Shown here: piece by piece, positions 36,020 through 58,513 of the stretch
Layout of the letters: each line of letters begins with the position of its first letter
How positions within the stretch are numbered: position 1 is the first letter of the stretch
Assembly (NCBI RefSeq): GCF_014524565.1
Contig: NZ_CP060139.1
Span: 937,501-1,001,500 of the forward strand
Direction of reading: 5' to 3'
Source of the DNA: Croceimicrobium hydrocarbonivorans
Lineage (GTDB): Bacteria > Bacteroidota > Bacteroidia > Flavobacteriales > Schleiferiaceae
DNA length: 64,000 nt
Notes under the pieces: generated by a model
The model's database searches: none
Seen by the model: the letters and a program-made list of their open reading frames with translations, nothing else
Told to the model about the DNA's origin: nothing
Made by a program: the position numbers and the translations under genes

Positions 36020-36031
36020 AAAATTAAAACA

Positions 36032-36484: not shown

Positions 36485-36503
36485 TGAAGATAAGAAAACC
36501 TTT

Positions 36504-36697: not shown

Positions 36698-36710
36698 TTA
36701 ATTTAGAAAA

Positions 36711-37984: not shown

Positions 37985-38027
37985 CTGCCCTACGGGACAG
38001 CAACGCTTTTTAGCCGAGCCGTTGAGC
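37959..38027 (+). other. attC site of C17 (class H)
   Basis: R'' AGCTAAC, 10-bp complement to head GTTAGCTTTA; R' GTTGAGC; arms GGCTAAAAA and TTTTTAGCC with CTGCCC/GGGACAG inside. Confidence 0.9.
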
Positions 38028-38033
38028 AATTAA

Positions 38034-38504
38034 ATGAAACAGAATATCATCATAACTCTATTAATTCTATTTCCAATTCTGTTATCAGGTCAGAACAATG
38101 AAGTTTCAGTCCTTGTAGAAAATGAGGTGGACACAGTTCTCACCTTTAAGAGAGAATTTAAAAGAAGTGGAAAACTAAAAAGGAGTAGGACTTTGATTGA
38201 AGTTAAAGTACTGAATAGCTATGGACTTCCAGTACTCAATCAAGTTTACCGAAAGAATAAAATTAGTTGGGAAAAACGTATCGAGTATTATGACGATAAT
38301 TCTGTGAGAAGAACTATTGACATAAAGGGAAGTGACACAACTGTAACGAACTGGGGTAGAAAGGAGTTTAAATATATTATTACTGGAGGACTTCCTGACT
38401 ATATCCCAAAAGTTGAATATTATCCCAACGGACTTATGAAAACTGAGACAAGTATTGGAAATAACGGGGAGTTTAGACTAGAATATGAGTATATAATGAA
38501 ATGA
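38034..38504 (+). CDS. Secreted MORN-like repeat protein (C18)
   Basis: A 156-residue exported protein (signal peptide MKQNIIITLLILFPILLSGQ) with repeated WEKRIEYYDDNSVRRTIDIK and PKVEYYPNGLMKTETS units like MORN-variant repeats. Function unknown. The start codon is only 13 bp from the core site. Confidence 0.76.
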   Translation: MKQNIIITLLILFPILLSGQNNEVSVLVENEVDTVLTFKREFKRSGKLKRSRTLIEVKVLNSYGLPVLNQVYRKNKISWEKRIEYYDDNSVRRTIDIKGSDTTVTNWGRKEFKYIITGGLPDYIPKVEYYPNGLMKTETSIGNNGEFRLEYEYIMK

Positions 38505-38512
38505 AAAACTGC

Positions 38513-38572
38513 TCACAACAACACCAATACGCTATGCCCATCGGGACACTGCGCAAAGCCAAACCGTTGCGC
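38513..38572 (+). other. attC site of C18 (class A)
   Basis: R'' TCACAAC, R' GTTGCGC; arms CAATACGCTATGCCC and GGGACACTGCGCAAAG. Tail GTTGTGAGCA (reverse complement) versus head GTTGAGCA: two bases differ in length. Confidence 0.83.
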
Positions 38573-39139: not shown

Positions 39140-39164
39140 AACGCAGTTTAGTCCAACCCTAGGC
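39114..39164 (+). other. attC site of C19, degenerate core
   Basis: R'' ACCCAAC; arms CCTAAACGGCATTAAAACGC and GTTTAGTCC. The core reads CCTAGGC rather than GTTAGGC. Confidence 0.72.
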
Positions 39165-39175
39165 ACACATTTAAA

Positions 39176-39890: not shown

Positions 39891-40020
39891 ACCTAACAAC
39901 GCATATAGCTTATAGCGGGTGAACGGCTACCAGCAGGGTTTTTACTCCGTAGCCAGCTTAGGTTTCGGTGGACAGGAAAGTGCTTCGAAACCGCCACAAG
40001 CCATATGCAAACCGTTAGCT
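39891..40020 (+). other. attC site of C20 (class B)
   Basis: R'' ACCTAAC, R' GTTAGCT; arms GCATATAGCTTATAGCGG and CCGCCACAAGCCATATGC. Confidence 0.88.
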
Positions 40021-40522: not shown

Positions 40523-40720
40523 AGCTAACACAGCATATAGCTTATGGCGGGTGAACGGCTGCCAGCAAGCTTGCCTGCCGACAAGCAGGGTTTTCGCTAC
40601 GTAGCCAGCCTTGGTTTCGGTAGACCAGCCTACATTTCACTCCGGACAGGCAGGCAGAATAACTTCGAATGGAAAATCAGCGAAGCTAAACCGCAGGTAG
40701 ATTTATGCAAACCGTTCGCC
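40523..40720 (+). other. attC site of C21 (class B, enlarged)
   Basis: R'' AGCTAAC, R' GTTCGCC (non-consensus). Arms GCATATAGCTTATGGCGG and a diverged right arm ending GATTTATGCAAACC. The centre holds an extra block with CGGACAGGCAGGCAG. Confidence 0.8.
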
Positions 40721-41404: not shown

Positions 41405-41447
41405 CTGCCCTGCGGGACAGCAACGCCTTTTAGCCGGAACCTTAGCT
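41379..41447 (+). other. attC site of C22 (class H)
   Basis: R'' GGCTAAT, core CTTAGCT; arms GGCTAAAAA and TTTTAGCCGG with CTGCCC/GGGACAG inside. Close relative of the site at 37959. Confidence 0.82.
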
Positions 41448-41979: not shown

Positions 41980-42070
41980 AAAATGAAACGATTAAACCAT
42001 TAAATAACTTTCGGCCGGCTGACAGGGAATTGCTTCTAAAGCCCGCCTGCTAACAGTCAAACCATTAGTG
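41943..42070 (+). other. attC site of C23 (class D)
   Basis: R'' TGCCAAC, core ATTAGTG; arms CTATAAGCAAACGGG and CCCGCCTGCTAACAG. Confidence 0.83.
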
Positions 42071-42536: not shown

Positions 42537-42652
42537 ACTCGAGTCGACTTTAATCCCGCTCCGGCTGGGACTTTCCGGTTGACAGAGACACCTTTCGTTT
42601 CTTTACAATACCACGGACGAAGCCGTCCTGCGTTTATTCAGAACCATTGGTA
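42521..42652 (+). other. attC site of C24 (class F)
   Basis: R'' CACTAAC, core ATTGGTA; arms AATAAACTCG and GCGTTTATT, with a G/C-rich centre (CCGCTCCGG). Confidence 0.83.
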
Positions 42653-43240: not shown

Positions 43241-43367
43241 CCCCAACAAAACCTAAAGCTCATGCGGCCTTTTCGTCTTCGGCAGACGCAGACACGGTTG
43301 ACGATGACGGTCTCAGTTCTTTAGGAACTTGCGGAAAGCCGCACTAGCTTTAGCCAAACCGTTGTGA
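43241..43367 (+). other. attC site of C25 (class G)
   Basis: R'' CCCCAAC, R' GTTGTGA; arms CCTAAAGCTCATGCGGC and GCCGCACTAGCTTTAG. Confidence 0.86.
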
Positions 43368-45266: not shown

Positions 45267-45326
45267 TGGCAACAAAGGGTATAGTGCATGCCCTTCCGGA
45301 AACCATGCCTAGTTAAACCCTTTGAC
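45267..45326 (+). other. attC site of C27
   Basis: R'' TGGCAAC, 10-bp complement to head GTTGCCACAC; core CTTTGAC. Arms GTATAGTGCATGCCC and GGAAACCATGCCTAGTTAAAC. Confidence 0.83.
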
Positions 45327-45331
45327 ACAAT

Positions 45332-45790
45332 ATGAAAGAAATAACAGCTCTTCTAATCAGTCTTATTTTCAGCTTTACCGTTTCTGCACAAAAAAACATC
45401 AATTTGGGAGAATGTGAAATCCTGAGAATCGACTCGATTGCTCTCTGTTCCTCTCATTATTCAATAACTGTTCTGACCTCGCTTGACACTTTCCGGTCAG
45501 TAATTCCGAAATCTGTAATTGAAAGCCCTCTCAAGGAATTGACTGGAAAAACAAGAAAAATTTCCGCTGAACCTATTGATAGCTTAATCTTGGACATAGA
45601 CTCAAAACTAGTTTATATAGCACTCGTCGGAACTGTCTCTAGCGATCCAGACTACGACCAGTATGATCAGATAAGCTACACCTGGAAGGTCAAAAAGAAC
45701 CTTTGGAAAAAAGAAGAAATAGAATTGAATCTATCGTACTACTACCACAACAAGAAAGAAACGAATCTTCTGATCACGAAAATCGAATAA
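45332..45790 (+). CDS. Secreted hypothetical protein (C28)
   Basis: A 152-residue exported protein (signal peptide MKEITALLISLIFSFTVSAQ) with two Cys (ECEILRIDSIALC) and a beta-rich body. Starts 12 bp from the core. Family unknown. Confidence 0.74.
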   Translation: MKEITALLISLIFSFTVSAQKNINLGECEILRIDSIALCSSHYSITVLTSLDTFRSVIPKSVIESPLKELTGKTRKISAEPIDSLILDIDSKLVYIALVGTVSSDPDYDQYDQISYTWKVKKNLWKKEEIELNLSYYYHNKKETNLLITKIE

Positions 45791-45800
45791 AAAATACTGT

Positions 45801-45931
45801 ACCCAACAACAAATAAACACCAGGCAGTTTTAATTGCACTGCTAGGCTTGGCCGAGATAGACAGAGAAACATTCCTTTTCTTCACAAGGCCACAAAAGAA
45901 GACACCCTGGATTTATTAAAACACATTGCCC
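45801..45931 (+). other. attC site of C28 (class F)
   Basis: R'' ACCCAAC, core ATTGCCC; arms AATAAACACCAGG and CCTGGATTTATT. Confidence 0.78.
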
Positions 45932-45942
45932 GCAATTTTAAA

Positions 45943-46476
45943 ATGAAACAACAGATGCCCTTAATAATCCTATTTCTTTTTCTGGGATTACAAGCTTGTT
46001 CTCAACAAAATTCAACCGAATTAGAAATCTATCATTCAGAAAAATATGGCTTCACCATTGACAAGCCAAAAAGCTGGGCTATATCGATACCACCAGATTC
46101 CTTAAAACTTGACGCGGTAGGCTTTCAACAAGTTGCAGAAAATAATGACACTTCTATTTTAGCTCATATCGACATTGTAATCGAAGAGACTAAACATGAT
46201 CAACTTAAAGACTTTGTTAAACAGACTATTAATAATGCAAAAGACTATTTTGAAAACTTTGAACTTATAAGTCAAAATGAATTCAAAAACGGCTCCTTAA
46301 AAGGTGAAAATTTTGTATTCACTTCATCATTTGGTGACATGCATTTTAAATCATCTGTATTTGCCTATTACATAAATGGTAAAATCTACATAATTACAGC
46401 AGAATCGGACTCACAAGATTTCCAAGAACTTGAAATGCTTTTTGAAACGATAGGTAAATCATTTGAAATAAAATAA
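45943..46476 (+). CDS. PsbP/DcrB-like lipoprotein (C29)
   Basis: A 177-residue lipoprotein (lipobox GLQAC, Cys19). EKYGFTIDKPKSWAISIP, followed by strand-helix units ending in YYINGKIYIITAESDSQDF, follows the PsbP/DcrB-like fold common in Bacteroidota lipoproteins. Cassette C37 and the partial gene at the right edge appear related in plan. Confidence 0.76.
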   Translation: MKQQMPLIILFLFLGLQACSQQNSTELEIYHSEKYGFTIDKPKSWAISIPPDSLKLDAVGFQQVAENNDTSILAHIDIVIEETKHDQLKDFVKQTINNAKDYFENFELISQNEFKNGSLKGENFVFTSSFGDMHFKSSVFAYYINGKIYIITAESDSQDFQELEMLFETIGKSFEIK

Positions 46477-46485
46477 AAAGACTGC

Positions 46486-46611
46486 TGGCAACAAAATCTA
46501 AGAAATAGCTTAGATCACAGCTTCCGCTTAGTTCACACTCTTTCGATAACTTCGAACTCGGCCGATACTTAGGTACTTGTAAATTACCATACCTTATACA
46601 AACCCTTAGCA
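46486..46611 (+). other. attC site of C29
   Basis: R'' TGGCAAC, core CTTAGCA; arms are weak (AAATCTAAGAAATAG). Tail and head agree at 8 of 10 positions. Confidence 0.65.
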
Positions 46612-46630
46612 ACAATTAAATTTATTAGAA

Positions 46631-47155
46631 ATGAAAACCGTAAAAACTAGACTTTTAGGATTAATTGCTTTGATCGCATTAACATCAAATTTTGTGATGG
46701 CACAGTCTGACACTAAGATTCGTTATACTGCATCTGCGGAGCTTTTTATAAATGACACGCCTCTTGATGGTCAGACCAAGCTTAAGGAATTGATAGCGAA
46801 CCTAGGAGAACCAAGTAAAAAAGTGGACTACCCAAACGGTGAGACAAGCTACTTTTATGAAGAAATTGGAATTGTGTTTTTCACTAAAGATGGTATAGTA
46901 AAAGGACTTGGCATAAATTTCAATTGGGATGGAGACGAAAAATTTCCAGAGAAAACATTCACAGGCACCTTAAACCTTGGCGATTCAGAAATTGAAAAAG
47001 AAACTAAGAGTGAATCAATAGCTGCAATAAAATCAATTGAGTTCATTTGCCCTATTCCGATAATGTGTGCATCTAAGGACAGAGAAGCGAAAATAAATTG
47101 TGCAGTTGCTTTTAAAGACGAAAAATTGACTCAAGTAGCATTTATCATAAACTAG
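46631..47155 (+). CDS. Secreted hypothetical protein (C30)
   Basis: A 174-residue exported protein (signal peptide ending NFVMAQ, about 1-25). KELIANLGEPSKKVDYPNGE, followed by YEEIGIVFF, matches a Bacteroidota domain of unknown function that compares predicted and observed segments; I cannot name it surely. ATG at 46631 fits the signal peptide. Confidence 0.72.
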   Translation: MKTVKTRLLGLIALIALTSNFVMAQSDTKIRYTASAELFINDTPLDGQTKLKELIANLGEPSKKVDYPNGETSYFYEEIGIVFFTKDGIVKGLGINFNWDGDEKFPEKTFTGTLNLGDSEIEKETKSESIAAIKSIEFICPIPIMCASKDREAKINCAVAFKDEKLTQVAFIIN

Positions 47156-47166
47156 AAAATAACCGT

Positions 47167-47318
47167 AGCTCACAAGGTATAAAGCAATTAGGGCAAGCAG
47201 TGGTTTAGGGAAGTTCAGTGCTATTTACCAATTGCGCCAAATCGTTGATTTGGCTCAGTTTAAAATTGAATGTTTATCGCTTTCTACAGCCCAATTTGCC
47301 ATATACTAAACCTTGGGC
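47167..47318 (+). other. attC site of C30 (class C, decayed)
   Basis: R'' AGCTCAC is mutated; core CTTGGGC. Arms GTATAAAGCAATTAGGGC and GCCCAATTTGCCATATAC remain clear. Confidence 0.72.
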
Positions 47319-47371
47319 AGCATAAGAGAAATGGACTTAAACTGCCACAAGCCATACCCAAACCCTTGGCG
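47312..47371 (+). other. Relic cassette: right half of a class B attC
   Basis: Only 53 bp separate two CTT cores. The content (GCCACAAGCCATACCC) is the right arm of a class B site, so a cassette has been deleted down to part of its attC. Confidence 0.65.
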
Positions 47372-47380
47372 TTAATTAAA

Positions 47381-47941
47381 ATGAAAATATTTCTGACAGA
47401 CCAAAAAAAGAACTTTGAAAAACATCTCAAGAGCTTTAGAAAAAAGTCTGTCATGGGCTACGATAAAAATCGGTTGACAGAAAAGGTTTCGACAATTGAC
47501 ATCACAACGGACAAGGTTGACTTTAAGGTTCTATTTGACTACAAAATCTTTCCTGACAATATCATGACCCATTTGACAGAATGGAAATTGAATAACCGAG
47601 AAATGAAAGCAGGAGACATAATAGTTCAACAAGTTTTCATTCCACCGACAAAGACTTTCTCGCAAAAAGTCGTTTTTGGAGTTAGAATAAATGAAATCAT
47701 TGAGGAACCGACAAAAAAAGGTTTTAGCTACGAGACATTAGATGGTCACGTTGAAAAAGGAATTTCGACTTTCACATTAGAACAGACAGATGAAAAGACC
47801 ATTTTCAAAATCCTGACTTATTCAGCCCCAGGAAATATTTTGACCCGAGCTTTAGGACCGATTTTTTCGAGACCCTATCAGAAGTACTCGACCCAACAAG
47901 CCTTGAAAAATGTAAAACAACAAATAAAAAAAAGCATATAA
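47381..47941 (+). CDS. DUF1990 family protein (C31)
   Basis: A 186-residue cytosolic protein. GFSYETLDGHVEKGISTFTL, followed by FKILTYSAPGNILTRALGPI and a basic C-terminal helix, matches the DUF1990 family. Function unknown. ATG at 47381 follows the core and relic; a longer frame upstream passes through attC. Confidence 0.8.
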   Translation: MKIFLTDQKKNFEKHLKSFRKKSVMGYDKNRLTEKVSTIDITTDKVDFKVLFDYKIFPDNIMTHLTEWKLNNREMKAGDIIVQQVFIPPTKTFSQKVVFGVRINEIIEEPTKKGFSYETLDGHVEKGISTFTLEQTDEKTIFKILTYSAPGNILTRALGPIFSRPYQKYSTQQALKNVKQQIKKSI

Positions 47942-47987
47942 CAAAACCTAAACTGCATTAAAACGCCGTTTAGCCAGAGCGTTATGG
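47936..47987 (+). other. attC site of C31
   Basis: R'' ATATAAC, R' GTTATGG; arms CCTAAACTGCATTAAAACGC and CGTTTAGCC. The tail does not match its own head. Confidence 0.7.
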
Positions 47988-48011
47988 CTAAGAGAATAAA
48001 ATAGAATCTAT

Positions 48012-48530
48012 ATGAGTTCAACTAGATGGTTTGACGAAAATGGGGACGAAATAATAAGAGAGCCTGTTAATCTTGACGAGACTGAACACATTGCAGAAAT
48101 CGGTGGAACCTTTGAAGCATTTAGCGTTGGGGTGAACTTTTATTCTGAGGACTTGGACAGGCACGAGATTACTAGATTAATTGGCGTAGAACCAACAAAA
48201 TCTTGGAATCCTAATGAAAGACACCCTATTGGTAACTCAAATAAGACAAGAATTACAGATTGGGGTAAATGGTATTTAACTTCAAAAAGAGATAATACTG
48301 AATTGAATCAGAAATTAGAGGACTTGTTAAACTCACTGACCTCTGATTTAGAAACATGGAAAAAATTAACTTCTAAATACCATGCTTGGATTGACGTTGC
48401 AGGTTACATGGAGAATTGGAATAGAGGCTTTAGTCTTAAACCCGAGCTAATGCGAATGCTAAGTGACAGAAACCTTGAAGTCGTATTTGACATTTATTAC
48501 GATGGAGAAGAAGAAAATGATGCTGATTAA
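48012..48530 (+). CDS. DUF4279 family protein (C32)
   Basis: A 172-residue acidic cytosolic protein. FSVGVNFYSEDLDRHEITRL, followed by IGVEPTKSWNPNERHP and RITDWGKWYL, matches the DUF4279 family, which often sits among immunity-like genes. No signal peptide. Starts 31 bp after the core. Confidence 0.8.
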   Translation: MSSTRWFDENGDEIIREPVNLDETEHIAEIGGTFEAFSVGVNFYSEDLDRHEITRLIGVEPTKSWNPNERHPIGNSNKTRITDWGKWYLTSKRDNTELNQKLEDLLNSLTSDLETWKKLTSKYHAWIDVAGYMENWNRGFSLKPELMRMLSDRNLEVVFDIYYDGEEENDAD

Positions 48531-48542
48531 AAAACTCCATAC

Positions 48543-48602
48543 CTACAACAAAACCTATTCGCAATGCCCTAAGGGACACTACGCATAGCCAAGACCTTGG
48601 CT
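48543..48602 (+). other. attC site of C32 (class A)
   Basis: R'' CTACAAC, core CTTGGCT; arms CTATTCGCAATGCCC and GGGACACTACGCATAG. Confidence 0.82.
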
Positions 48603-48613
48603 ACCATTTAAAA

Positions 48614-49252
48614 ATGAACGAGTACGAAAATTTAAACAGAGAACTTAGTGAGGCTGGTGTTCCGGATCATGTTTTCATGGAACAGAAAGGAAAGCCTATT
48701 GATACTCTGGTTAATACAAAAACATCGTCTCATCCTTATGAAGATATTTTGATTGAATACCTATATAAATTGTCAGGTAGCAACTTAGAAATGGTAGTGC
48801 GTGCCTTGACAGAAAAGAAAAACAAGAAAGCTGCGCCTTACTTATTGAAAATCATCCAACGTAGAAATGGACTTTCAAAACATAATCTATGGGCTGTAGG
48901 AAATGCTTTATACACGATTGACAATAAGAACACCTACTCAGAAATTATGAACCTCTGTCGTGACAAGTCACTTGGAATTGGCAGAGCAAAGCTTTTTGGA
49001 GTTCTCTCGAGAATCAGAACAGAGGAGGCATTCGATATTCTGGTTAAAAATCTGTCCGATCAAGAAGTGAGAGGAGATGTTATTGAAGCGCTCGGTAGGT
49101 TTGGGGATCCTAAGGCAATTCCCCTTTTAGAAAATTTGACCCCAGACAAAGAGAAGTATGAGTTCAAAGCTAGGAACACTGCATTGAAAAGATTGAAAGA
49201 AAAAAAACTGGGTTCAACCTTGGGTATAAAAAATAGGTCGGACTGTGCTTAA
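48614..49252 (+). CDS. HEAT-repeat protein (C33)
   Basis: A 212-residue cytosolic protein of HEAT/PBS-like repeats (SNLEMVVRALTEKKNKKAAP, EEAFDILVKNLSDQEVRGDV, PKAIPLLENLTPDKEKYEFK). Probably a binding scaffold. Related repeat proteins appear among immunity genes, but no partner is seen. Confidence 0.82.
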   Translation: MNEYENLNRELSEAGVPDHVFMEQKGKPIDTLVNTKTSSHPYEDILIEYLYKLSGSNLEMVVRALTEKKNKKAAPYLLKIIQRRNGLSKHNLWAVGNALYTIDNKNTYSEIMNLCRDKSLGIGRAKLFGVLSRIRTEEAFDILVKNLSDQEVRGDVIEALGRFGDPKAIPLLENLTPDKEKYEFKARNTALKRLKEKKLGSTLGIKNRSDCA

Positions 49253-49258
49253 TGCAAG

Positions 49259-49337
49259 TTTGCAGCAAAGAGCAAGCATTATCTCAGTGGGCAAATACGT
49301 GGCTCCGAAATGCCCTATTCATACCCGAGCCTTTGGC
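49259..49337 (+). other. Decayed attC site of C33
   Basis: Core CTTTGGC. Only weak arms (GGGCAAATACG / GAAATGCCCTATTC) and no clear R'' remain. Confidence 0.4.
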
Positions 49338-49347
49338 GGTAATTAAT

Positions 49348-50163
49348 ATGAAACACTCGATAACCCTACTAATAATCCTTTTCGCTTTTGCAGCACAAGG
49401 ACAAAAGAAGGCGGAAAAGCTTTTCCAGAAAGCCATTTCCAACTATGAGAGCGGAAATTATTATGATGCTGCGACGGACTTTCAGGAAATTGCAGAGAAC
49501 CATAAAAGGTTTAAATACCATGACCAGTGCTTTTATAACACAGCATATTCATATCATCAAGCTGACAGTCTCACTTTAGCAATTACCTGGTATGAGAAAA
49601 TAAGAGCTTCAAATTTGAAAGATGACAATAGAGTTGGTGGAAGGGGAATTTTGGAACCTTATGCTAATTACAAGCACTACTCTACTTTCAATATTGCCAC
49701 AATTGAGTACAATCGAGAAAATTATGAGAAGGCACTTGAGTACTATCGACAATCCTTAGAAAAGTACCCTTACTATAATGAATCAGGAACTGACTTAAGA
49801 ACAAACAAAAATCAACTGACCATTTACGTAAGCGATTGCTTAGAGAAGCTTGAAAAATATGAAGAAGCACTTCTTACGATTGTTCCTGAAGCACTGGACT
49901 CCAAGAGAAGCTCAAACTATGAATCAGTTGTAAAGCGCTCCATCGAAATAATTACTGACCATTTTGACAAAGAAAAAATACAGCAAGAACTTAGTACTGC
50001 TCTTGAAACATTAGAGAAAAACGAAAAGGAAGGTTCCTATTCTATCACAATACGGAATAAAAAGATAAAGCTCTTTCCATATTGGTTAGATGATGACTCA
50101 ATTGACGGACTGAAAAAAGAAATTATTGACTCAGAATTTTGGAAAAAGTTGATTGAAGAATAA
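49348..50163 (+). CDS. Secreted TPR protein (C34)
   Basis: A 271-residue exported protein (signal peptide MKHSITLLIILFAFAAQGQ) with tetratricopeptide-like repeats (AEKLFQKAISNYESGNYYDA, FNIATIEYNRENYEKALEYY). Likely periplasmic. ATG at 49348 is the one that gives the signal peptide. Confidence 0.8.
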   Translation: MKHSITLLIILFAFAAQGQKKAEKLFQKAISNYESGNYYDAATDFQEIAENHKRFKYHDQCFYNTAYSYHQADSLTLAITWYEKIRASNLKDDNRVGGRGILEPYANYKHYSTFNIATIEYNRENYEKALEYYRQSLEKYPYYNESGTDLRTNKNQLTIYVSDCLEKLEKYEEALLTIVPEALDSKRSSNYESVVKRSIEIITDHFDKEKIQQELSTALETLEKNEKEGSYSITIRNKKIKLFPYWLDDDSIDGLKKEIIDSEFWKKLIEE

Positions 50164-50168
50164 TGACT

Positions 50169-50297
50169 AATGCCACAATGGAAAATCAAATAAGCGATAA
50201 AGTAGTAAATTCAAGACTTCTTGAGCGCTTTAAAATTGTTTCGCTTTGATAAAATGAAGTCATCAATCGCCTACTTTGCATGTACTCACCGTTGACC
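50169..50297 (+). other. Decayed attC site of C34
   Basis: R' GTTGACC is good; the left side (ATGCCACAA) is mutated. Some resemblance to class C (CGCCTACTTTGCATGTAC). Confidence 0.5.
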
Positions 50298-50308
50298 ACA
50301 ATTAAAAA

Positions 50309-50920
50309 ATGCTAGAACTACCACCTACAGTTCGGATCCCAAGAGAAGATGAAACTCCGCCTGATAAGTCTGTTCGTGAACGCCTTAAAAAATACACTAC
50401 CGCGAACATTGTTGAGGGATATTCACTCTCTAAAAATCTTAAAACAAGTGATTCGCCTCTTTTCGATTTCTATGCAGAAATTAACGTCAACAACTCTCGT
50501 CTTTGGAATTTGGTTTCGAATCTTGCTTCCTTGTTTCCCGAAAACCTTTCCTTAATCTTTGGTTATGACAGTGACCATCTTTTTTATGGGAACTACAGGG
50601 AAAAACATTCAATATTGACTGAAATAGAGCCGTTTAAAAGAGAACTGGTCCAAGATGGGTTCATGGAATGGGGACTTATTTATCATGACGAGAATAGACT
50701 AGTCGAGATTTTCGTTAAAGGACCAAAGTACCTTCAATGTTGGGGTGACAACCTACAAGCATTCCTTGAAATTATTGAGACTTTCGGTTTAAATGAAATA
50801 CCCAACCTTGAGTTTATTGATGAATATCCGAAAGTAATTGAATCACTATGGCATATGGATAATTCGGTTTATCAAACTTCAGAATTGATTGAGAAACTAA
50901 AAGAAAAAAACTGTGGCTAA
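50309..50920 (+). CDS. Hypothetical cytosolic protein (C35)
   Basis: A 203-residue acidic protein without signal peptide. DSDHLFYGNYREKHSILTEI, followed by FMEWGLIYHDENRLVEIFVK, has the alternating pattern of immunity-type proteins; I recognise no family. Stop TAA overlaps R''. Head and tail agree at 8 of 10 bases. Confidence 0.76.
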   Translation: MLELPPTVRIPREDETPPDKSVRERLKKYTTANIVEGYSLSKNLKTSDSPLFDFYAEINVNNSRLWNLVSNLASLFPENLSLIFGYDSDHLFYGNYREKHSILTEIEPFKRELVQDGFMEWGLIYHDENRLVEIFVKGPKYLQCWGDNLQAFLEIIETFGLNEIPNLEFIDEYPKVIESLWHMDNSVYQTSELIEKLKEKNCG

Positions 50921-50978
50921 CAACGACTATAAATCATGTCGCTCCGCGCCACGCCTCATAGCCAAACCCTTGTTGCCA
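50915..50978 (+). other. attC site of C35
   Basis: R'' GGCTAAC; right core either CTTGTTG (50969) or GTTGCCA (50972). Arms CTATAAATCATGTCG and CGCCTCATAG. Confidence 0.72.
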
Positions 50979-50992
50979 ATTTAAAAGACACC

Positions 50993-51496
50993 ATGAAACC
51001 ACTATTCATTTTGATGATCTTCTTTAGCCTAAACTCATTTGGTCAGGATCAAGAACTATTGCAACAAATGATACAAGGCTGCCTTTCAGATTCAACCTTC
51101 AAATACACCGTGCTTAATGAGCCTGATCATAAATGTATCGACAAGCCTACTTATTCGATCCCATATGGAGCAGCCAACTATACAGCTGACTTAGAACTTG
51201 ATTTAACTTTTAATGGAGCATCTCTGCATGAACATTATTATAGCGATTCAACAAAGTGTTTTCCATTTCAGATTTCTTTTCTTCAAAAATCAAAGTCACG
51301 CTACGAAATATCGGTGAGCTATATTATTTCAATACCACTATCATGTGAACACCTGGAAGGCCATGGAAAAAATCATGGTTGCTTCAGTAGAAAGGTAATT
51401 TCTATACGCCGAAAAATCAAAATCAAAAGGAATGGAGACTGGAAAATAAGGGATACTCAATACTATAACCGAATTATGTCCGGTACCTTTCTTTGA
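50993..51496 (+). CDS. Secreted hypothetical protein (C36)
   Basis: A 167-residue exported protein (signal peptide MKPLFILMIFFSLNSFG). It has six or more Cys (QGCLSDS, HKCIDK, STKCFP, SCEHLEGHGKNHGCF), suggesting a disulfide-stabilised periplasmic or secreted domain. Family unknown. Confidence 0.74.
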   Translation: MKPLFILMIFFSLNSFGQDQELLQQMIQGCLSDSTFKYTVLNEPDHKCIDKPTYSIPYGAANYTADLELDLTFNGASLHEHYYSDSTKCFPFQISFLQKSKSRYEISVSYIISIPLSCEHLEGHGKNHGCFSRKVISIRRKIKIKRNGDWKIRDTQYYNRIMSGTFL

Positions 51497-51621
51497 AACA
51501 ACCGAAAAATAAATTCGGTTTTAATCCTGCTTCGCTATTGGCTTTAGGATGGACTGACAGACCTTTCGTTTTTTTACCAAATCGCGGAAGAAGCCGCCCT
51601 GCTCTTATTCAAACCTTTGTG
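51496..51621 (+). other. attC site of C36 (class F, decayed)
   Basis: R'' AAACAAC, core CTTTGTG; sequence TTTTAATCC...GACAGACCTTTCGTTT and the right end GCCGCCCTGCTCTTATTC align with the class F sites. Confidence 0.65.
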
Positions 51622-51638
51622 GCACAAAAAACCAAGAC

Positions 51639-52271
51639 ATGAACAAACTTTTGACATTAGTTTCAATTCTGACAACATTGACCTTCATTTCGTGCGGACA
51701 ACCGGACCCAAACAAACAGATTGATGAAGGCACTGTAAAAGATAATACCTATACAAGTGAAGAAATTGGTTGGACAATAAAAATACCAGACGGTTGGACG
51801 GTAATCAATCAAGAACAAACTCAAGCCAATAATGAGAGAGGATTAAATGCCCTGGAAGAAACTCTAGAGAATGAAATAGATTTAAGCGGACTGAAAAACC
51901 TAATTGGGTTTCAAAAAAATCAATTCAACATATTTCAGTCTTCTTCCGAGCCATTTGAACTTGAATATGATGGTGAGTGGGAAGAAAATAATGCCGCTCT
52001 AAAAGAGGTTATTTATACAACATATTTGAATCAAGGTATGAGAGCAGACTCATCCGCTACTACTACTGAAGAAATCGATGGTTTAGAATTCCAAAGGTTT
52101 AGTTTTACCATTTACAGCCCAAAGGGTGAAGTAATAATGAAACAAACTATGTACAGCAGACTAATTAATGGCTTTGACTTTGGTGTAAACTTGAACTACA
52201 ACAATGACGAAGACAAAGAAATAATGCTAGAAGCATGGAAAAACTCAACTTTTAAAAAACAGCACGGCTAA
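51639..52271 (+). CDS. PsbP/DcrB-like lipoprotein (C37)
   Basis: A 210-residue lipoprotein (lipobox TFISC, Cys19). YTSEEIGWTIKIPDGWTVIN starts a PsbP/DcrB-like domain, ending MKQTMYSRLINGFDFGVNLN. Same plan as C29 but clearly diverged. The attC that should follow is truncated. Confidence 0.78.
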   Translation: MNKLLTLVSILTTLTFISCGQPDPNKQIDEGTVKDNTYTSEEIGWTIKIPDGWTVINQEQTQANNERGLNALEETLENEIDLSGLKNLIGFQKNQFNIFQSSSEPFELEYDGEWEENNAALKEVIYTTYLNQGMRADSSATTTEEIDGLEFQRFSFTIYSPKGEVIMKQTMYSRLINGFDFGVNLNYNNDEDKEIMLEAWKNSTFKKQHG

Positions 52272-52300
52272 ACCGCCACAATCCCCATGCAAACCGCAGT
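52265..52300 (+). other. Truncated attC remnant of C37
   Basis: GGCTAAACCGCCACAATCCCCATGC is an R''-like start joined directly to a class B right arm, so the centre is deleted; the core reads CGCAGTA. Confidence 0.5.
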
Positions 52301-52313
52301 AGTACATTAAGAA

Positions 52314-52733
52314 ATGACAAACAGATATTTAAGCTACTATCAAATTATCGGAATCATTGTATCGATGACCATAATTTCAATTTGGGCTTTTAAAGTAGGG
52401 GGCATGATGCCATTCTACATTCTGTTTGCAGGACTTCTTTTTTCACCATTTATCATTGTTTCGACCCTTTCTCTTTTGGACCTTGAAGCATATAAAAAAA
52501 CAATAAAAGGAGGAATTTGGACCGGAACGGTTCTTTTGCTAGCCCTCTCCTATTCCCTACCATTTTTCTTTGAATGGGGCGGAGTAATACTAGCCTTAAT
52601 TTGCACTGGAATAGGCTTTTACATTTGGACTAAAAGAACTGAAATTGAGTGGCAAATCTCAATTTTCAATGTAATCGGAACTTCCATCGTGACGGTAATT
52701 TTGATTTCAATAATTGCCGCAGGGCTAAGCTAA
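52314..52733 (+). CDS. Small four-helix membrane protein (C38)
   Basis: A 139-residue protein with about four membrane helices (near 8-28, 32-54, 64-82, 84-104, with a final helix 118-138). No polar motif is seen. Family unknown. Confidence 0.7.
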   Translation: MTNRYLSYYQIIGIIVSMTIISIWAFKVGGMMPFYILFAGLLFSPFIIVSTLSLLDLEAYKKTIKGGIWTGTVLLLALSYSLPFFFEWGGVILALICTGIGFYIWTKRTEIEWQISIFNVIGTSIVTVILISIIAAGLS

Positions 52734-52740
52734 AAAAAAG

Positions 52741-52875
52741 CGGGCTACCACATTGGCTATAGCAAATGCCGGCTGACTGACTAGAAATGATGATATTACA
52801 ACTAACAACATTCAGCCCAGCGGACAAAGGTTCGGTTTCAAAATCCCGTGCTTACCATAGCCAGGGCCCTTGCCG
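52741..52875 (+). other. attC site of C38, decayed
   Basis: GGCTACCAC opens and CTTGCCG closes; arms TTGGCTATAGCAAATGCC and TACCATAGCCAGG still pair. Confidence 0.62.
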
Positions 52876-52883
52876 CACATAAA

Positions 52884-53345
52884 ATGAACCTGTGGAAAAT
52901 CATATCAATTAGCTTCTTCACTGCAGCTGTTTTCAGTTGTTCTGAAAACATTGGAAAGGAAAAAGTGAACCATACTGAAGAATTGAAACCGGATAGTTGT
53001 AATCAAGTTAGTAAAGACGCTAACTTATTGCCAGTCAAAAACAAATGGCAACTGTTAAAGATAAACAGAGCTTGGGAGCAAGCACCTGAAGTCCCTCCTC
53101 AAAGAGAGCTTTGGGATTTCTCCAATGGAGACTCATTAATTGTTCTAGCTGACGGACAAACTTTATTCAAGTTTAAAACTAATTGGAAATATGACTATTC
53201 AGCTTTTAGCGGTGATTCAACATGGATAATGACTAGAATAAAGGACGCACATAGTCCAAGGGTTGACTTTGAAATAAACCTATATAAGGACACTCTAGAG
53301 CTGTTTGAACAGTGCGAGAGTTTCATTCTTGTAAAGAAAGAATAA
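52884..53345 (+). CDS. Lipocalin-like lipoprotein (C39)
   Basis: A 153-residue lipoprotein (lipobox AVFSC, Cys19). The second part (KWQLLKINRAWEQAPEVPPQ, then ELWDFSNGDSLIVLADGQ) has the strand pattern of lipocalin-like proteins that report weight change on ligand binding. ATG at 52884 gives the signal peptide. Confidence 0.74.
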   Translation: MNLWKIISISFFTAAVFSCSENIGKEKVNHTEELKPDSCNQVSKDANLLPVKNKWQLLKINRAWEQAPEVPPQRELWDFSNGDSLIVLADGQTLFKFKTNWKYDYSAFSGDSTWIMTRIKDAHSPRVDFEINLYKDTLELFEQCESFILVKKE

Positions 53346-53436
53346 ATTACAGTCAAAATATAAAGCAATGACTTAGGGCAAACTTGAAAGTTAATCACTT
53401 TATACTGCCCTACGCGCCAAATACAAAACCTTAGCA
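53346..53436 (+). other. Decayed attC site of C39 (class C)
   Basis: Core CTTAGCA; AATATAAAGCAATGACTTAGGGC and CTGCCCTACGCGCCAAATA retain class C arms, without a clear R''. Confidence 0.5.
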
Positions 53437-53462
53437 ACCACAGCCTCCGCAATTAAAACCTT

Positions 53463-54236
53463 ATGAAAGTAATACTGATTTTTACGATTCTAATTTCCTG
53501 GGGAATCGTGCAAGGCCAAAGCAATGATTTTGACAAGCTAATTTCAAAATACGGTAAAGAAGGAACTGAGATAGACAGTGTTCAATTAAGAAAATATTTT
53601 GACGTTGACCTGCATCCTGATATCGCACCGTCCGGATATGCTGATAAAATCATCCTTCGCAAACCAAACATGATTGGTTTGACCTGTAAAGTTATATGCA
53701 CAGCAGGAGGCGGATGTGAATCCAGCAAACTACGGATTTTTGATTATGAGGGTAATGTTTTAGGAAAGCTTAAGGATTTCGAGCATTTTTTCGCAGACTG
53801 TAGTGATCAAAATGAAAAATATTGCGAATACATTTCTGATTCGATTTTAATAGTCGTCGATAAGGTCAAGGCACAAAAAGACTGCGATACTGACTCCTTA
53901 GTAAAATTGGAAATATCCATAGAAACCTACAGAATTAAAAATAACGGCGAGGTAATTAAATTGGATAGAAAGCAAATTGACACAAGACGTGAGTATTTTT
54001 TTACTTCCATTAAATTACTTTCGGACTCAGACCTTAAGGATAAATCTAAAATTGATTTAGCCACCATGAGAAATGAGATTTATGCAGCTCATGGCTACAT
54101 TTTTAAAACCGACAAATGGCGAAATTATTTTAAAACACAAAGTTGGTACGCACCCAGGTTTGACAATGTCAATAACGACTTGACTTTGATAGAGAAAGAA
54201 AATATTAAATTGATTCAGAAACACGAGAAGCATTAA
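53463..54236 (+). CDS. Secreted YARHG-domain protein (C40)
   Basis: A 257-residue exported protein (signal peptide ending IVQGQ, about 1-19). A Cys-containing middle region (CKVICTAGGGCESSKL) is followed by a C-terminal YARHG domain (MRNEIYAAHGYIFKTDKWRN, about 201-245). Related to C27 through that domain only. Confidence 0.8.
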   Translation: MKVILIFTILISWGIVQGQSNDFDKLISKYGKEGTEIDSVQLRKYFDVDLHPDIAPSGYADKIILRKPNMIGLTCKVICTAGGGCESSKLRIFDYEGNVLGKLKDFEHFFADCSDQNEKYCEYISDSILIVVDKVKAQKDCDTDSLVKLEISIETYRIKNNGEVIKLDRKQIDTRREYFFTSIKLLSDSDLKDKSKIDLATMRNEIYAAHGYIFKTDKWRNYFKTQSWYAPRFDNVNNDLTLIEKENIKLIQKHEKH

Positions 54237-54429
54237 GGTTCGCATTTCAATGTAGCCCAGCCAAATCCTTGATTTCGCTCAGTTCAAAATGAAACTTTTG
54301 AAACTTAGCATTGCAATAGAATTTTTTTCATGGATACGGCATTGATGTTTACGCTGAACTAAAAACGGGGACCAAGTAAAGCGAAAGCCTATGAAAAGCC
54401 GACCTATTCAGACCCTTATTTACTCCAAA
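54237..54429 (+). other. Decayed intercassette region
   Basis: Fragments such as CCAAATCCTTGATTTCGCTC resemble the class C centre, but no R'' or core can be assigned. Possible core CTTATTT near 54416. Confidence 0.35.
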
Positions 54430-55371
54430 ATGAAAAAGGCTCTATCCCTAGTTACTGCATTACTTTTACTGACTTCTTGTGCTACAATTTTCAACGAATC
54501 GCATACGAACATCACTTTTTACAGCACCGAAGCGATTCAGATTGTGTGCAAGCAGGATACCCTCAACACGATTGACAATAAGGCTATTTTGCAGGTTGAA
54601 AGAAAAAATGAGCCCTTGCAGCTTACTGTCTCCACAGATAGCTTAAGCAAAACCATAGAAATTGAAGCCAAGCACTCCTATAGATATTGGAGCAACCTAA
54701 TCGCTAATGGAGGCATTGGAATGCTCGTCGACAAAAACACGCCCAAGCGCTATACTTATGCGCATAGAATCTATATAAACGTCACCGATACATTGATCAG
54801 CTACAGCAACTACATTCAAGGTAAATCTAAAGGGGAAATAGACCTAACACTTTCCCTGCCTCATCTTAACTCATTCCTTCTTAAGCCTGAAAATGAAGGA
54901 GCTAAAACAAATACCGGTTTTTGGGGCTTAAACTTGGGCCTCGACTATTACCATTCCCAAAGGCAATTTTTCACTATCGGAATATCCTGGGTATCAGACT
55001 TTTTTGTCCCCTTACCTGCGGCAGTGGACCTAAGTGGTGAACTTGAACTGATGAGCTCAAGTTATGCTAGCTTTTCGAACAACCATAAACTTGGCCGTTT
55101 TTCACTAGGCTATGGCTTCGCCTACACAAAAAACATATGGGATTTCAAATATTTTGATCGATTTGACCCGCCGCCGCCAACCAGAGAAGCAGTTAAGAAA
55201 AGCAGCATTGCACTAGGATTCATTTTCCCTGCCTATTTTCAGCTCGGTAAACACTTTAATCTCGGACTAATTTATCGACCCACTTTCTTTCGCCCTGAAA
55301 TGACCGACAAATTCCAATATGAACATCTGATTAGTATAGATTTTGCCTGGAAAATAAGATTGAAGCAATAA
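54430..55371 (+). CDS. Lipoprotein with probable barrel-like C-terminal half (C41)
   Basis: A 313-residue lipoprotein (lipobox LLTSC, Cys17, then ATIF). The first half resembles Bacteroidota 'SCATI' lipoproteins with PEGA-like strands; the second (GLNLGLDYYHSQRQFFTIGI, ALGFIFPAYFQLGKHFNLGL) has alternating strands that could form or mimic an outer-membrane barrel. Longest single-frame lipoprotein of the array. Function unknown. Confidence 0.76.
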   Translation: MKKALSLVTALLLLTSCATIFNESHTNITFYSTEAIQIVCKQDTLNTIDNKAILQVERKNEPLQLTVSTDSLSKTIEIEAKHSYRYWSNLIANGGIGMLVDKNTPKRYTYAHRIYINVTDTLISYSNYIQGKSKGEIDLTLSLPHLNSFLLKPENEGAKTNTGFWGLNLGLDYYHSQRQFFTIGISWVSDFFVPLPAAVDLSGELELMSSSYASFSNNHKLGRFSLGYGFAYTKNIWDFKYFDRFDPPPPTREAVKKSSIALGFIFPAYFQLGKHFNLGLIYRPTFFRPEMTDKFQYEHLISIDFAWKIRLKQ

Positions 55372-55499
55372 TTAGAATTGAGAACCTATTTAAAGCTTAT
55401 TCCGGTTAAAAGGCCATTAGGCTTCAGTGGAAAGAAAAAAGCTTTGAATTGAAAATAAGCCTAACTAGAACGCCAGAAGCCCTGTGCAAACCCTTAGCC
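55372..55499 (+). other. Decayed attC site of C41 (class B-like)
   Basis: Core CTTAGCC; GCCAGAAGCCCTGTGCAAACC recalls the class B right arm. R'' not clear. Confidence 0.5.
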
Positions 55500-55512
55500 G
55501 CCATTTGAAAAA

Positions 55513-56097
55513 ATGAAATTTCTGATTCCAATTATAGTTCTGATCTCGACATTTAGCTGCAAATCAGAACTCGACAATCATGAAGTACAACTTCGTGAAA
55601 CTGACTCTTTAAAAACCAGGGAGCTAATCAACCAGATTTTAGAAAGGGAACAGAAATTCCCTAGGTTTCCAAGTTGCATTTCAGAAAAGCCTAGAGCAAT
55701 TGAACTCCGTAGGTATAAGCAATTTGACCAAATCTTAAACACCTATCTGGACATTAGAGATTCCATTCACCTCAAAATTCAAAAAGAAAAATTTAAGGAC
55801 TTCAAAATAAGTCCAGAATTAGCTGGTAAGCTTCAAATAATTACCGAGTACGACTTTGAAAAATTTGAGAATCAGAGTAAAACTAAGGGAACGGATTTTT
55901 TTGAAATCCTCGACTCTCTATGCGTGAACGGATATTTCTCGATAAGTAAACCCATATTTAACGAAACCTTCGATTTAGCTGTTGTCCAGACTGGTGTCAT
56001 CTGTGGAGGATTTTGTGGTGGTGGTGAGATGACGATATATGAATGGATTAATGGGAAATGGCTTGAGAAAGAAATAGTTTCAGTCTGGGTAAGTTGA
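55513..56097 (+). CDS. Lipoprotein of unknown function (C42)
   Basis: A 194-residue lipoprotein (lipobox STFSC, Cys16) with a helical middle and a C-terminal GVICGGFCGGGEMTIYEWIN, where Cys/Gly clusters suggest a compact beta-turn. Family unknown. Confidence 0.75.
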   Translation: MKFLIPIIVLISTFSCKSELDNHEVQLRETDSLKTRELINQILEREQKFPRFPSCISEKPRAIELRRYKQFDQILNTYLDIRDSIHLKIQKEKFKDFKISPELAGKLQIITEYDFEKFENQSKTKGTDFFEILDSLCVNGYFSISKPIFNETFDLAVVQTGVICGGFCGGGEMTIYEWINGKWLEKEIVSVWVS

Positions 56098-56114
56098 AAA
56101 AGCCTAAATAAAAA

Positions 56115-56123
56115 CGGTGGCTA
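56115..56123 (+). other. R'' remnant where an attC has been lost
   Basis: GTGGCTAGC, preceded by AAAAACG, is a mutated tail matching head CTTAGCC, but the rest of the attC is missing; the next gene starts 11 bp later. Confidence 0.5.
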
Positions 56124-56133
56124 GCAAATATTA

Positions 56134-56547
56134 ATGAAGTCAAAACTCAGAACATATTATTTCCTACAAGCGGGCCTGCTAATTCTAATTGCTTTTGCGG
56201 TATTTGAAACCTTAAGGTCTCTGCCCTATTTAAAAACCTGGACAGAATTGGGAAAATCAGGAATTGAATTAACGATTAGTACTGCACTTGTATTTGGGAT
56301 CTTGAGCATGGTAATCAATTCAACAAATTTTGTTCTGCTAAAAAATAATAAGACTAAAATAGCTTTTGATTTGCCTTCCATCATTTGGCTGATAATTGGT
56401 ATTAGCTATCTAATTGCTATACAAAATAGTGGTGCAGAATCACTTATAGAGTATCTTCCAATTGTCCTTTGTATCGAACCAATAATGTACAACCAAAGAA
56501 TAAAACATTTGCTTTCAAATGCTAAACTGCACTGGCACGCAGTTTAA
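56134..56547 (+). CDS. Small membrane protein (C43)
   Basis: A 137-residue protein with four helices (near 10-27, 44-66, 76-94, 100-116). Its frame continues through the small attC hairpin, coding the C-terminus KLHWHAV. Family unknown. Confidence 0.7.
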   Translation: MKSKLRTYYFLQAGLLILIAFAVFETLRSLPYLKTWTELGKSGIELTISTALVFGILSMVINSTNFVLLKNNKTKIAFDLPSIIWLIIGISYLIAIQNSGAESLIEYLPIVLCIEPIMYNQRIKHLLSNAKLHWHAV

Positions 56548-56549
56548 CC
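56519..56549 (+). other. Minimal attC-like hairpin of C43
   Basis: TAAACTGC-ACTGGCAC-GCAGTTTA is a perfect 8-bp stem like the central part of the site at 47936; flanking R boxes are absent. It lies within the end of the preceding gene. Confidence 0.5.
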
Positions 56550-56572
56550 AGAAAATAAGCACCTATTTAGAA

Positions 56573-56872
56573 ATGAAACTTGACGACCTTACAGAAATCA
56601 AAATAAACGCAAATGGTGAGACCAAACCATATGTCGACTCTGGCACAGAAATTCTTCTAGTCCAAGATGGAACCGTGTCAGTAGGGAAATTGAATTACAA
56701 TCCTAACGAATTCTACTCGACTGAAATTGAACACCCGACAAATAAGGAAGAACTGAATCCCCTAGCGACAGACATAGTAAAGTCTAAAAAACCTGAACTA
56801 CTGAGTTCCGATATATCTCATGTTCTGACTTGTCCGATTGACATCAAAGTCAAAATGAAATGGGAAAAATAG
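56573..56872 (+). CDS. Small hypothetical protein (C44)
   Basis: A 99-residue soluble protein without signal peptide, rich in Glu, Lys and Asn. ATG at 56573 follows the hairpin. No family recognised. Confidence 0.65.
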   Translation: MKLDDLTEIKINANGETKPYVDSGTEILLVQDGTVSVGKLNYNPNEFYSTEIEHPTNKEELNPLATDIVKSKKPELLSSDISHVLTCPIDIKVKMKWEK

Positions 56873-56879
56873 AAACCGC

Positions 56880-57073
56880 TACCAACAAGCCTACCTGCGG
56901 ACAAGCAGGGATTTCGCTTCAAAGCCAGCTTTGGTTGCGGTGGACCTGCTTTGTGGTTTTCAAGGCTTAGGTTCTTCGTAAAAACCCCATCATTAAGCAA
57001 GATGAACCCCGTGGAAAAAAACGAAATTCTACTACCTCAATTCAGCCACGGAAACCAGTACTAAACCTTAGCT
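56880..57073 (+). other. attC site of C44 (class B, decayed)
   Basis: R'' TACCAAC, core CTTAGCT; retains GACAAGCAGGGATTTCGCTTC and other class B middle sequence. Confidence 0.6.
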
Positions 57074-57085
57074 GTATTGGATTAA

Positions 57086-57745
57086 ATGAAACGAACAAAC
57101 CTAATCGGAATGATAATTATGGGCCTTTTTAGCTTTTTGGGGTGTAAATCGGACAAAAAAACTGATTCGAAATCTGCAATAGACCAAGAAATGCAGGATT
57201 CAATCGACAAATCGTTTGAAGAGTTCAACAGCAGAAGAATCTATACGACTTTAACCTCTGAAATTATTGATACCACGGAAGATTATAAATTGCTACAAAC
57301 CATTTTTGATAACATAGAAACCATTTTTGAAGAAGGTGAACAATACACCAAAGACAAAATCTCAAAACTGACGAAAGGGCAACAAGCAATCTTTTCAATA
57401 TGGATGCTACAAGCGGAAGTCAATAACGGGGGATTTAATCAATTCTATTATAACTCTAGTGGACAGTTTTCAGAAATGGCAAAAGACGGGCTGGAGTATA
57501 TTGGTGCTGAAAAATTGGCTGAATTAGTCGAAAAAGCAAATAAGACTTATTCAGATATTAAGGCTGAACTTGATTCAAAGGATGATGGAACAATTGAAAG
57601 CTTTAGTGAATCTTATGAAGACAACCCTCTGAACGATTTTGACCACAAATTTTATGAATTGGAAAAAGCTGAAAATTTGGACAGTTTACAAATCGTGTTC
57701 ATTCGGGAAAACAAAGAAGAATTCATAAAGCAAAAATGCAGCTAA
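57086..57745 (+). CDS. DUF4375 (DMP19-like) lipoprotein (C45)
   Basis: A 219-residue lipoprotein (lipobox SFLGC, Cys20). LTKGQQAIFSIWMLQAEVNN, followed by GGFNQFYYNSSGQF and an all-helical stretch, matches DUF4375, related to DMP19-like proteins and often found among immunity genes, though usually cytosolic. The stop overlaps R''; head and tail pair. Confidence 0.82.
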   Translation: MKRTNLIGMIIMGLFSFLGCKSDKKTDSKSAIDQEMQDSIDKSFEEFNSRRIYTTLTSEIIDTTEDYKLLQTIFDNIETIFEEGEQYTKDKISKLTKGQQAIFSIWMLQAEVNNGGFNQFYYNSSGQFSEMAKDGLEYIGAEKLAELVEKANKTYSDIKAELDSKDDGTIESFSESYEDNPLNDFDHKFYELEKAENLDSLQIVFIRENKEEFIKQKCS

Positions 57746-57799
57746 CAACAACTCTACGCAATACCCTGCAGGATACTGCGTATAGCCAAACCCTTGGGA
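57740..57799 (+). other. attC site of C45 (class A)
   Basis: R'' AGCTAAC, core CTTGGGA; arms CTACGCAATACCCTGC and GCAGGATACTGCGTATAG. Best-kept site of the distal part. Confidence 0.85.
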
Positions 57800-57819
57800 C
57801 TCCTTATTAAAAAGCGAAA

Positions 57820-58332
57820 ATGAATTCGATAAAAGGCATACTGGACAAAAGTGACTATGAAATCTATGATGACTACTTGAATTTTCAAGTGGACGCTTAT
57901 TGGCTTGACGAAAACCTTGAAGAACTCTATCCAGGTAATATGTACAAGGGAACAGTCCCGACCCTTTTGTTTTGGATGGAAATTGAAAAGGAGCGTGAAG
58001 TCGTTTGGAACAGAATATTACCTGACAAGGGACAAAAAGTAATCTGCCCCATTTTAATGTGTCCTGACGATTCTGATTTTTCTTGCATGCTGATTGACGC
58101 TGAAATTGAAAACACTGGTACGACAGTTAGATGGAATAAAATTGGGCTTGATCGAACTGAAGAGTTTGAACCGCAGAAAATAGGTTCCACAGTTGAATGG
58201 TTTGATAAAATGGAACCCCTTGAATTTGAGTTAGCCGAATACGAACAAATGCTTGGCGAATTCAAGAAACACTTTGAGATTGACAAACTGAAATGGGAAG
58301 TAAGGAATAGAGAATTTCAAGAAGGTAAATGA
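57820..58332 (+). CDS. Hypothetical acidic cytosolic protein (C46)
   Basis: A 170-residue soluble protein, strongly acidic, with many Trp (AYWLDENLEELYPGNMYKGT, FWMEIEKEREVVWNRI). Its look fits immunity-like proteins of Bacteroidota, but I recognise no family. Confidence 0.74.
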   Translation: MNSIKGILDKSDYEIYDDYLNFQVDAYWLDENLEELYPGNMYKGTVPTLLFWMEIEKEREVVWNRILPDKGQKVICPILMCPDDSDFSCMLIDAEIENTGTTVRWNKIGLDRTEEFEPQKIGSTVEWFDKMEPLEFELAEYEQMLGEFKKHFEIDKLKWEVRNREFQEGK

Positions 58333-58346
58333 AAAATAAATACGGT

Positions 58347-58513
58347 GCCCAACACAGCATATAGCTTTAAGCAGGTGAAAGGCTCCCAGCATTCCTAGCT
58401 ACCAACAAGCAAGGTTATCGCTCCCTAGCTATTTTGTTTCCGGGAAACCGGATTGCTTCGAATTGAAAATCAGCGTAGCTAAACAGCAACAAGCCCTATG
58501 CAAAGCCTTGGAC
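58347..58513 (+). other. attC site of C46 (class B)
   Basis: R'' GCCCAAC, core CTTGGAC; GCATATAGCTTTAAGC and GCAACAAGCCCTATGC arms. Confidence 0.75.

Follow-up and report, generated by a model that had tools for sequence, protein, structure and literature searches.

The cassette array and its attC sites

This study concerns a 64,000-nucleotide stretch of the Croceimicrobium hydrocarbonivorans genome (G000:C1:937,501-1,001,500; hereafter the window, in whose coordinates positions are given unless stated otherwise), which is assembled as a single contig of 4.04 Mb. From about 24.6 kb of the window onward, cassettes, most of them with a single gene, follow one another in tandem with attC-like sites between them, and along this row the base preceding the recombination cut changes from G to, predominantly, C. 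The sites carry NNNYAACAANNNCTATA at the R' box and ATANNCAAACCNTTRRC at the R'' box. Between the tandem open reading frames (ORFs) we located 44 attC cores, all on one strand, the sites being of the type in which R' (AAC) and R'' (NTTRRRY) boxes can pair, and a covariance model with the core base N masked scored attC sites at up to 59 bits. Cassette boundaries were checked by comparing the first nine bases of each cassette (TTRRRYNNN) with its own R' box. In most proximal cassettes 8 or 9 of the 9 bases are complementary, as expected if cassettes close into circles, and the row is thus an integron cassette array. This match averages 8.1/9 in the proximal half versus 5.7/9 in the distal half (p = 8e-4).

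The array begins at an attI-like edge, of which positions 24459-24628 are 87% identical to the same place in genome G001, where cassettes come next as well. No recombinase gene was found adjoining this edge (24459-24641), which is all that G000 has of an integron platform with integrase gene and attI. With at least two attC sites and no integron integrase nearby, the array falls within the definition of a cluster of attC sites lacking integron integrases (CALIN). A search of Rfam returned no matches.

The base at the cut site shifts from G to C

Cores were detected with position matrices and a scan in which N was left free, and with the masked covariance model. The core base therefore carries no information in detection, and the choice of sites cannot favour any base. 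All 18 proximal cores (25,017-38,566) have G and read GTT. The seven middle cores (39,159-43,361) comprise three G, two C and two A, and the 19 distal cores (45,320-58,507) comprise 13 C, three G, two T and one A. Non-G cores are strongly associated with array position (Mann-Whitney p = 1e-6). The platform edge and the cores are as follows.

24459..24641, + strand: attI-like platform edge, first core G at 24641 (AACAAG followed by TTAGCGCG)
25017..38572, + strand: 18 proximal R'' cores, all G, at 25017, 27209, 27733, 28311, 28950, 29740, 30105, 31106, 31654, 32030, 32887, 33633, 34518, 35225, 36013, 36691, 38021 and 38566
39159..39165, + strand: R'' core C (CTA, second T gone)
40014..40020, + strand: R'' core G
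40714..40720, + strand: R'' core G
41441..41447, + strand: R'' core C
42064..42070, + strand: R'' core A; boundary complementarity 9/9
42646..42652, + strand: R'' core A
43361..43367, + strand: R'' core G
45320..45326, + strand: R'' core C; R' AAC at 45273; short attC
45925..45931, + strand: R'' core A; orthologous G004 cassette has G
46605..46611, + strand: R'' core C; R' AAC at 46492
47312..47318, + strand: R'' core C
47365..47371, + strand: R'' core C; attC without its 5' part
47981..47987, + strand: R'' core G; sole distal site appearing intact
48596..48602, + strand: R'' core C; R' AAC at 48549; short attC, otherwise intact
49332..49338, + strand: R'' core T; previously read as CTT at 49331
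50291..50297, + strand: R'' core G; R' unrecognisable
50969..50975, + strand: R'' core C; R' AAC at 50921; otherwise intact
51616..51622, + strand: R'' core T; previously read as CTT at 51615
52296..52302, + strand: R'' core G, TT changed to CA
52869..52875, + strand: R'' core C; R' is CAC at 52751
53430..53436, + strand: R'' core C
54415..54421, + strand: R'' core C
55493..55499, + strand: R'' core C; boundary complementarity 7/9
57067..57073, + strand: R'' core C
57793..57799, + strand: R'' core C; R' AAC at 57746; short attC, otherwise intact
58507..58513, + strand: R'' core C; syntenic G001 site L024:10892 also C

An initial annotation of this DNA had claimed a distal switch from GTT to CTT cores setting in at 45.3 kb. 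The switch is confirmed, while its onset is not abrupt: changes from G start near 39 kb as a mixture. Two of the C sites listed there, 49331 and 51615, read CTTT with an aligned core base of T, and the list had omitted 50969 and 54415 (C) and 45925 (A). The number of C among all 20 non-G cores departs both from equal thirds (p = 1.7e-4) and from 0.38 (p = 9e-4), which is the proportion of C found at fourfold degenerate sites after C between G000 and G001.

Neighbouring bases, attC classes and the older state

At the 19 distal sites, the C at position -1 is kept in 19/19, the T at +1 in 18/19 and the T at +2 in 18/19. N itself differs from G at 16/19 sites, whereas changes at these three neighbours together number 2/57 (Fisher 1e-11), so the pattern is not one of general decay. 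Sites without TT are harder to find, and ascertainment may therefore explain some of the conservation of the neighbours. The covariance model depends only slightly on the bases flanking N, and the six distal sites that it finds (45320, 46605, 47981, 48596, 50969 and 57793) all keep their neighbour bases. Four short attC sites (45320, 48596, 50969 and 57793) retain both boxes and the stem, with C in place of G. A single-base deletion of G that moved C into the core was considered and rejected, since the spacing to the CAT/CAAAC box is unchanged. At 47313-47365, a 53-base remnant in which the 3' end of an attC follows immediately on another R'' marks a truncated cassette.

The C cores are distributed over several attC classes (the short 47-base type, the CAAGCCATATG type, the ACTAAAC type and the CCAGGGCC type), and these classes carry G elsewhere, for example at 31654, 35225 and 36691 in the window and at L068:6708. 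Asked whether it tracks position or attC class, the core C thus tracks position and not class. In most C-core sites with a readable R', this box keeps AAC (the pairing base is nearly always C), so no matching change has occurred on the pairing side. An older attC lineage as the source of C, one of the options raised in the initial annotation, is unsupported on these grounds and was rejected.

We also sought orthologs of distal cassettes with G in a sister genome and C in the window. A single cassette was informative, with G against A: the 81% identical G004 copy of cassette 45,321-45,925 ends its attC with G, where the window has A. Judging from this copy, G is probably the older state at the end of that cassette. 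At site 58,507 both G000 and G001 (93% identical) have C, which dates that change to before the split of the two genomes.

Mutation spectrum and core bases in other genomes

G000 and G001 diverge by 6-7%, and G-C differences make up only 37 of 429 between them, for which reason a global excess of G-C mutation was rejected. A CpG hotspot seemed promising after a first tally by context, in which 26 of 55 changes of G after C went to C. It was rejected in turn: differences at G in fourfold degenerate sites after C were C60, A60 and T37 (C share 38%), and those at non-coding C-G sites were A6 and T6, with 0/12 to C. Under the 38% null the distal C excess has p = 5e-4. A symmetric CpG process should, moreover, also hit the C at -1, which is untouched. 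The directional mutation suggested earlier therefore fails as a general bias, while a position- and lineage-specific directional change fits, and to this extent the earlier interpretation is partly supported.

The following comparisons draw on modest samples, with one genome per species. GTDB and IMG/VR contigs, scanned with a pattern that left N free, yielded 154 matches (G150, A2, T1, C1). Arrays fetched from other genera of Bacteroidota gave G359, A17, T10 and C5 over 391 sites, a tally in which some low-scoring sites may be chance matches; a stricter threshold of 26 left the same contrast, with C2 versus A10 and T5. The distal non-G cores of the window (C13, A1, T2) differ from the full tally for other genera (Fisher 1.6e-5). 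Elsewhere in the genus the count is C8, A2, T1, or C6, A2, T1 once a spurious call and the 58,507 ortholog are taken out, and the latter count also differs from other genera (Fisher 0.006). These C cores lie mostly at the far end of their arrays, C being last in L020, L024 and L041, and two G sites coming after it in L018. The preference for C is concentrated in this genus, and a general C bias across Bacteroidota was rejected by the tallies from other genera. The expectation that A, C and T would not be equally shared at decayed cores of a broader set, with C in excess, thus falls as a general rule but is not contradicted as a rule for this genus.

A recombinase without the I2 helix beside attC arrays

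No integron integrase gene above the cut-off was found in the 88 family genomes searched. G000 and its genus lack a recognisable integron integrase, and in G000 we found no array-type recombinase, only XerC- and XerD-like relatives. In genome G022, a tyrosine recombinase of 380 residues adjoins an attC array. Its relatives (33-43% identity) lie upstream of attC arrays on the same strand, at distances of 0.4 to 7.7 kb, in 11 loci from different genomes, a count that leaves out the duplicates L015 and one of L071/L190. No attC on the opposite strand was detected at these 11 loci.

L050:3674-4816(-), L018:18029-19171(-), L041:14059-15213(-), L021:14524-15657(-), L071/L190, L078, L115, L118, L180, L202 and L212: Bacteroidota-type loci of Xer-like recombinases of about 380 residues

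The co-location of this enzyme with attC arrays is consistent with its moving the cassettes. The solved structures closest to the family profile are an archaeal XerC-like protein (4a8e) and XerA (5hxy). The array-linked recombinase also matches IntI4 (2a3v) and conserves R, K, HxxR, H and Y. IntI4 aligns in two pieces, however, chain 16-184 and 246-319 matching query 105-273 and 292-365. Its residues 185-245, about 60 in number and located where the I2 helix is expected, are unmatched in the recombinase, and the profile search splits IntI4 in the same way. An AlphaFold model of the L115 member, of modest confidence (mean predicted local distance difference test score, pLDDT, 71), has no helix between 276 and 291. 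The array-linked recombinase thus lacks I2, an alpha-helix inserted between the KDR patch and HxLRH, and it is placed upstream of the array in the same orientation, two respects in which it differs from these known recombinases. I2 has been described as unique to integron integrases and as conferring single-strand recombination (PMC7790495). Within the literature searched, Bacteroidetes proper are reported to have only In0 elements, known from earlier, and one complete integron, that of Salinibacter ruber (PMC9024848). The recombinase family without I2 is possibly an independent or ancestral integron system.

The array resembles the sedentary chromosomal integrons of Vibrio and Xanthomonas in its tandem one-gene cassettes, its RYYYAAC and GTTRRRY attC boxes, the complementarity of each cassette start to its own R', and the position of older cassettes farther from the platform. 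It differs from them in that change has fallen mainly on one defined cut base (G to C) instead of being scattered, and in that the genome has no IntI bearing an I2 helix. With CALINs it shares an attC array in a genome without an integrase gene, but it has more than 40 sites, compared to a mean of almost six per CALIN (IntegronFinder 2.0, PMC9024848).

Far flank and other features of the window

Beyond the last core, hardly any attC sites are recognisable between 58.6 kb and genome position 1,033 kb. In G001 the corresponding far flank begins about 2 kb past the end of the array, so that about 36 kb present here is absent from G001. The segment 58600-64000, continuing to about 1,033,500 in the genome, is perhaps the oldest, erased part of the array. 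An ORF at 60483-61091 recurs, at 78% identity, next to attC cassettes in Lishizhenia (L188). In G001 (L024:10130-11351), the 42.6 kb cassette is joined directly to the 58.5 kb cassette (window positions 43247 and 58353); the junction lies near R' boxes (CCCAACA) and not R'', and the 15 kb difference arose by deletion or insertion.

Closer to the platform edge, a cassette without a long ORF is present in three copies (24642-25017, 29741-30105 and 31655-32030), and 24641-24940 and 31654-31953 are 100% identical over 300 bases. Such identical copies suggest that cassettes have moved recently, even though we found no gene for an array-type recombinase in the genome. The first ORF-bearing cassette (25054-27076) holds two genes matching the PADLOC candidate defence families PDC-M37A (E 2e-109) and PDC-M37B (E 5e-149). 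Outside the array, a 1.3 kb segment at 12777-14310 with a 382-residue ORF (no Pfam match) is flanked on both sides by 113-base direct repeats (99%) and has no alignment to G001 at the corresponding place.

Explanations for the change of the core base

The explanation that we favour, with about even confidence, is an ageing integron-type array in which in-place, lineage-specific and mostly G-to-C substitution at the scissile base disables old attC sites. New cassettes would enter proximally, at about 24.6 kb, with an attC cut between G and TT. In the distal part, which would be older, the base preceding the cut would have been substituted in place across unrelated attC classes, mostly from G to C, with the flanking C and TT kept. 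Once changed, N would neither pair with R' nor offer the one-base homology on which strand transfer depends, and such sites should then no longer be cut, leaving their cassettes fixed in the chromosome. The driver would likely be survivorship or selection for permanence, in which uncuttable boundaries persist while cuttable ones are removed. Why C should prevail is conjectural; it is perhaps the change that this recombinase tolerates least.

Class 1 integrons provide the analogy. There the bottom-strand AAC triplet (GTT on the top strand) is conserved across attC and gives microhomology with attI for strand transfer; in the test reported, attI1 no longer recombined when its AAC was changed to AAA, and mismatches in the triplet cut IntI1 binding (PMC4792948). 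G/C is never present in attI L boxes, which prevents exchange there (PMC2727003). Going by the class 1 triplet, a changed N should stop cutting in the present array too, and by the same criteria 18 of the 19 boundaries in the distal part appear disabled: N has changed in 16, TT is lost at 52296, and 50291 has no readable R'. Judging from the arrays compared, this proposed G-to-C route of retirement does not appear in related genera.

Several observations weigh against this explanation. Under survivorship alone one would also expect changes of TT to be favoured, yet they are seen at one site only; G to A would likewise be expected to lead among the changes, and here it does not. Three distal sites retain G. 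The main statistic rests on 16-20 changed sites, with p = 5e-4 to 9e-4 under the most lenient null (0.38). In addition, the scan model was derived from this array, and strongly decayed sites, including those lacking TT or the -1 C, are under-represented.

Other explanations each account for part of the pattern. The distal half could have been built earlier from a pool of CTT-core cassettes by a C-preferring recombinase, and the proximal half later by a G-preferring one. The distal location of the C block, the retention of -1 C and TT as if C sites had functioned, and the occurrence of C at or close to the distal end in other arrays of the genus (minus-strand positions L018:15039, L020:15711 and L041:19508, and also L024:10892) would agree with this. 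An intact population of C-core sites is missing, however, with one C in the 154 database matches and five in the 391 sites of other genera; R' is still AAC in most readable C sites, with no paired change, and several of their classes exist with G. We therefore consider this history unlikely, and a recombinase of different preference, as the initial annotation had envisaged, could at most belong to the past of the genus. It is distinctly unlikely that the distal cores reflect neutral decay under a context bias by which C-G dinucleotides of the genus mutate to C-C. Although G to C is as frequent as G to A at fourfold degenerate sites after C, none of the non-coding C-G changes leads to C, a symmetric CpG process would have turned -1 C into G (seen in 0/19), and the bias leaves unexplained that N changed at 16/19 sites while its neighbours stayed.

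The restriction of change to the base beside the scissile phosphate would suit damage by the recombinase itself, with abortive bottom-strand cleavage leaving a 5'-OH at the base opposite N and misrepair replacing that base. Genomes that possess the recombinase (G003, G004 and G005) likewise have changed cores in their arrays. Yet repair templated by the intact strand would bring back G, C is not seen in other genera that have this type of recombinase, and we know of no route that would yield C, which makes this origin quite improbable. Finally, C cores might constitute a second compatibility class, whose members recombine with each other and not with the G of attI. The predominance of C instead of a mixture would be explained, and the cleaved triplet does supply the microhomology with attI needed for strand transfer (PMC4792948). 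We saw no evidence of exchange among C sites, though, and integrase binding itself falls when the triplet is altered (PMC4792948), so that we regard a second class as very improbable.

A broader proposal joins these results: a widespread integron-like system of Bacteroidota with an I2-less Xer-like recombinase, together with a genus-specific G-to-C core switch that retires cassettes (or forms a second compatibility class) and makes the old half of the array permanent. We consider this combination doubtful as a whole, and of its parts the I2-less recombinase beside attC arrays may be more novel than the base switch.

The passage of cassettes from mobile to permanent is poorly understood, and the same core change at more than ten boundaries with intact neighbours offers a testable mark of fixation. 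The change of the core base could perhaps also serve as a clock along the array. That recombinases lacking the I2 helix lie next to attC arrays in many Bacteroidota bears on the origins of integrons.

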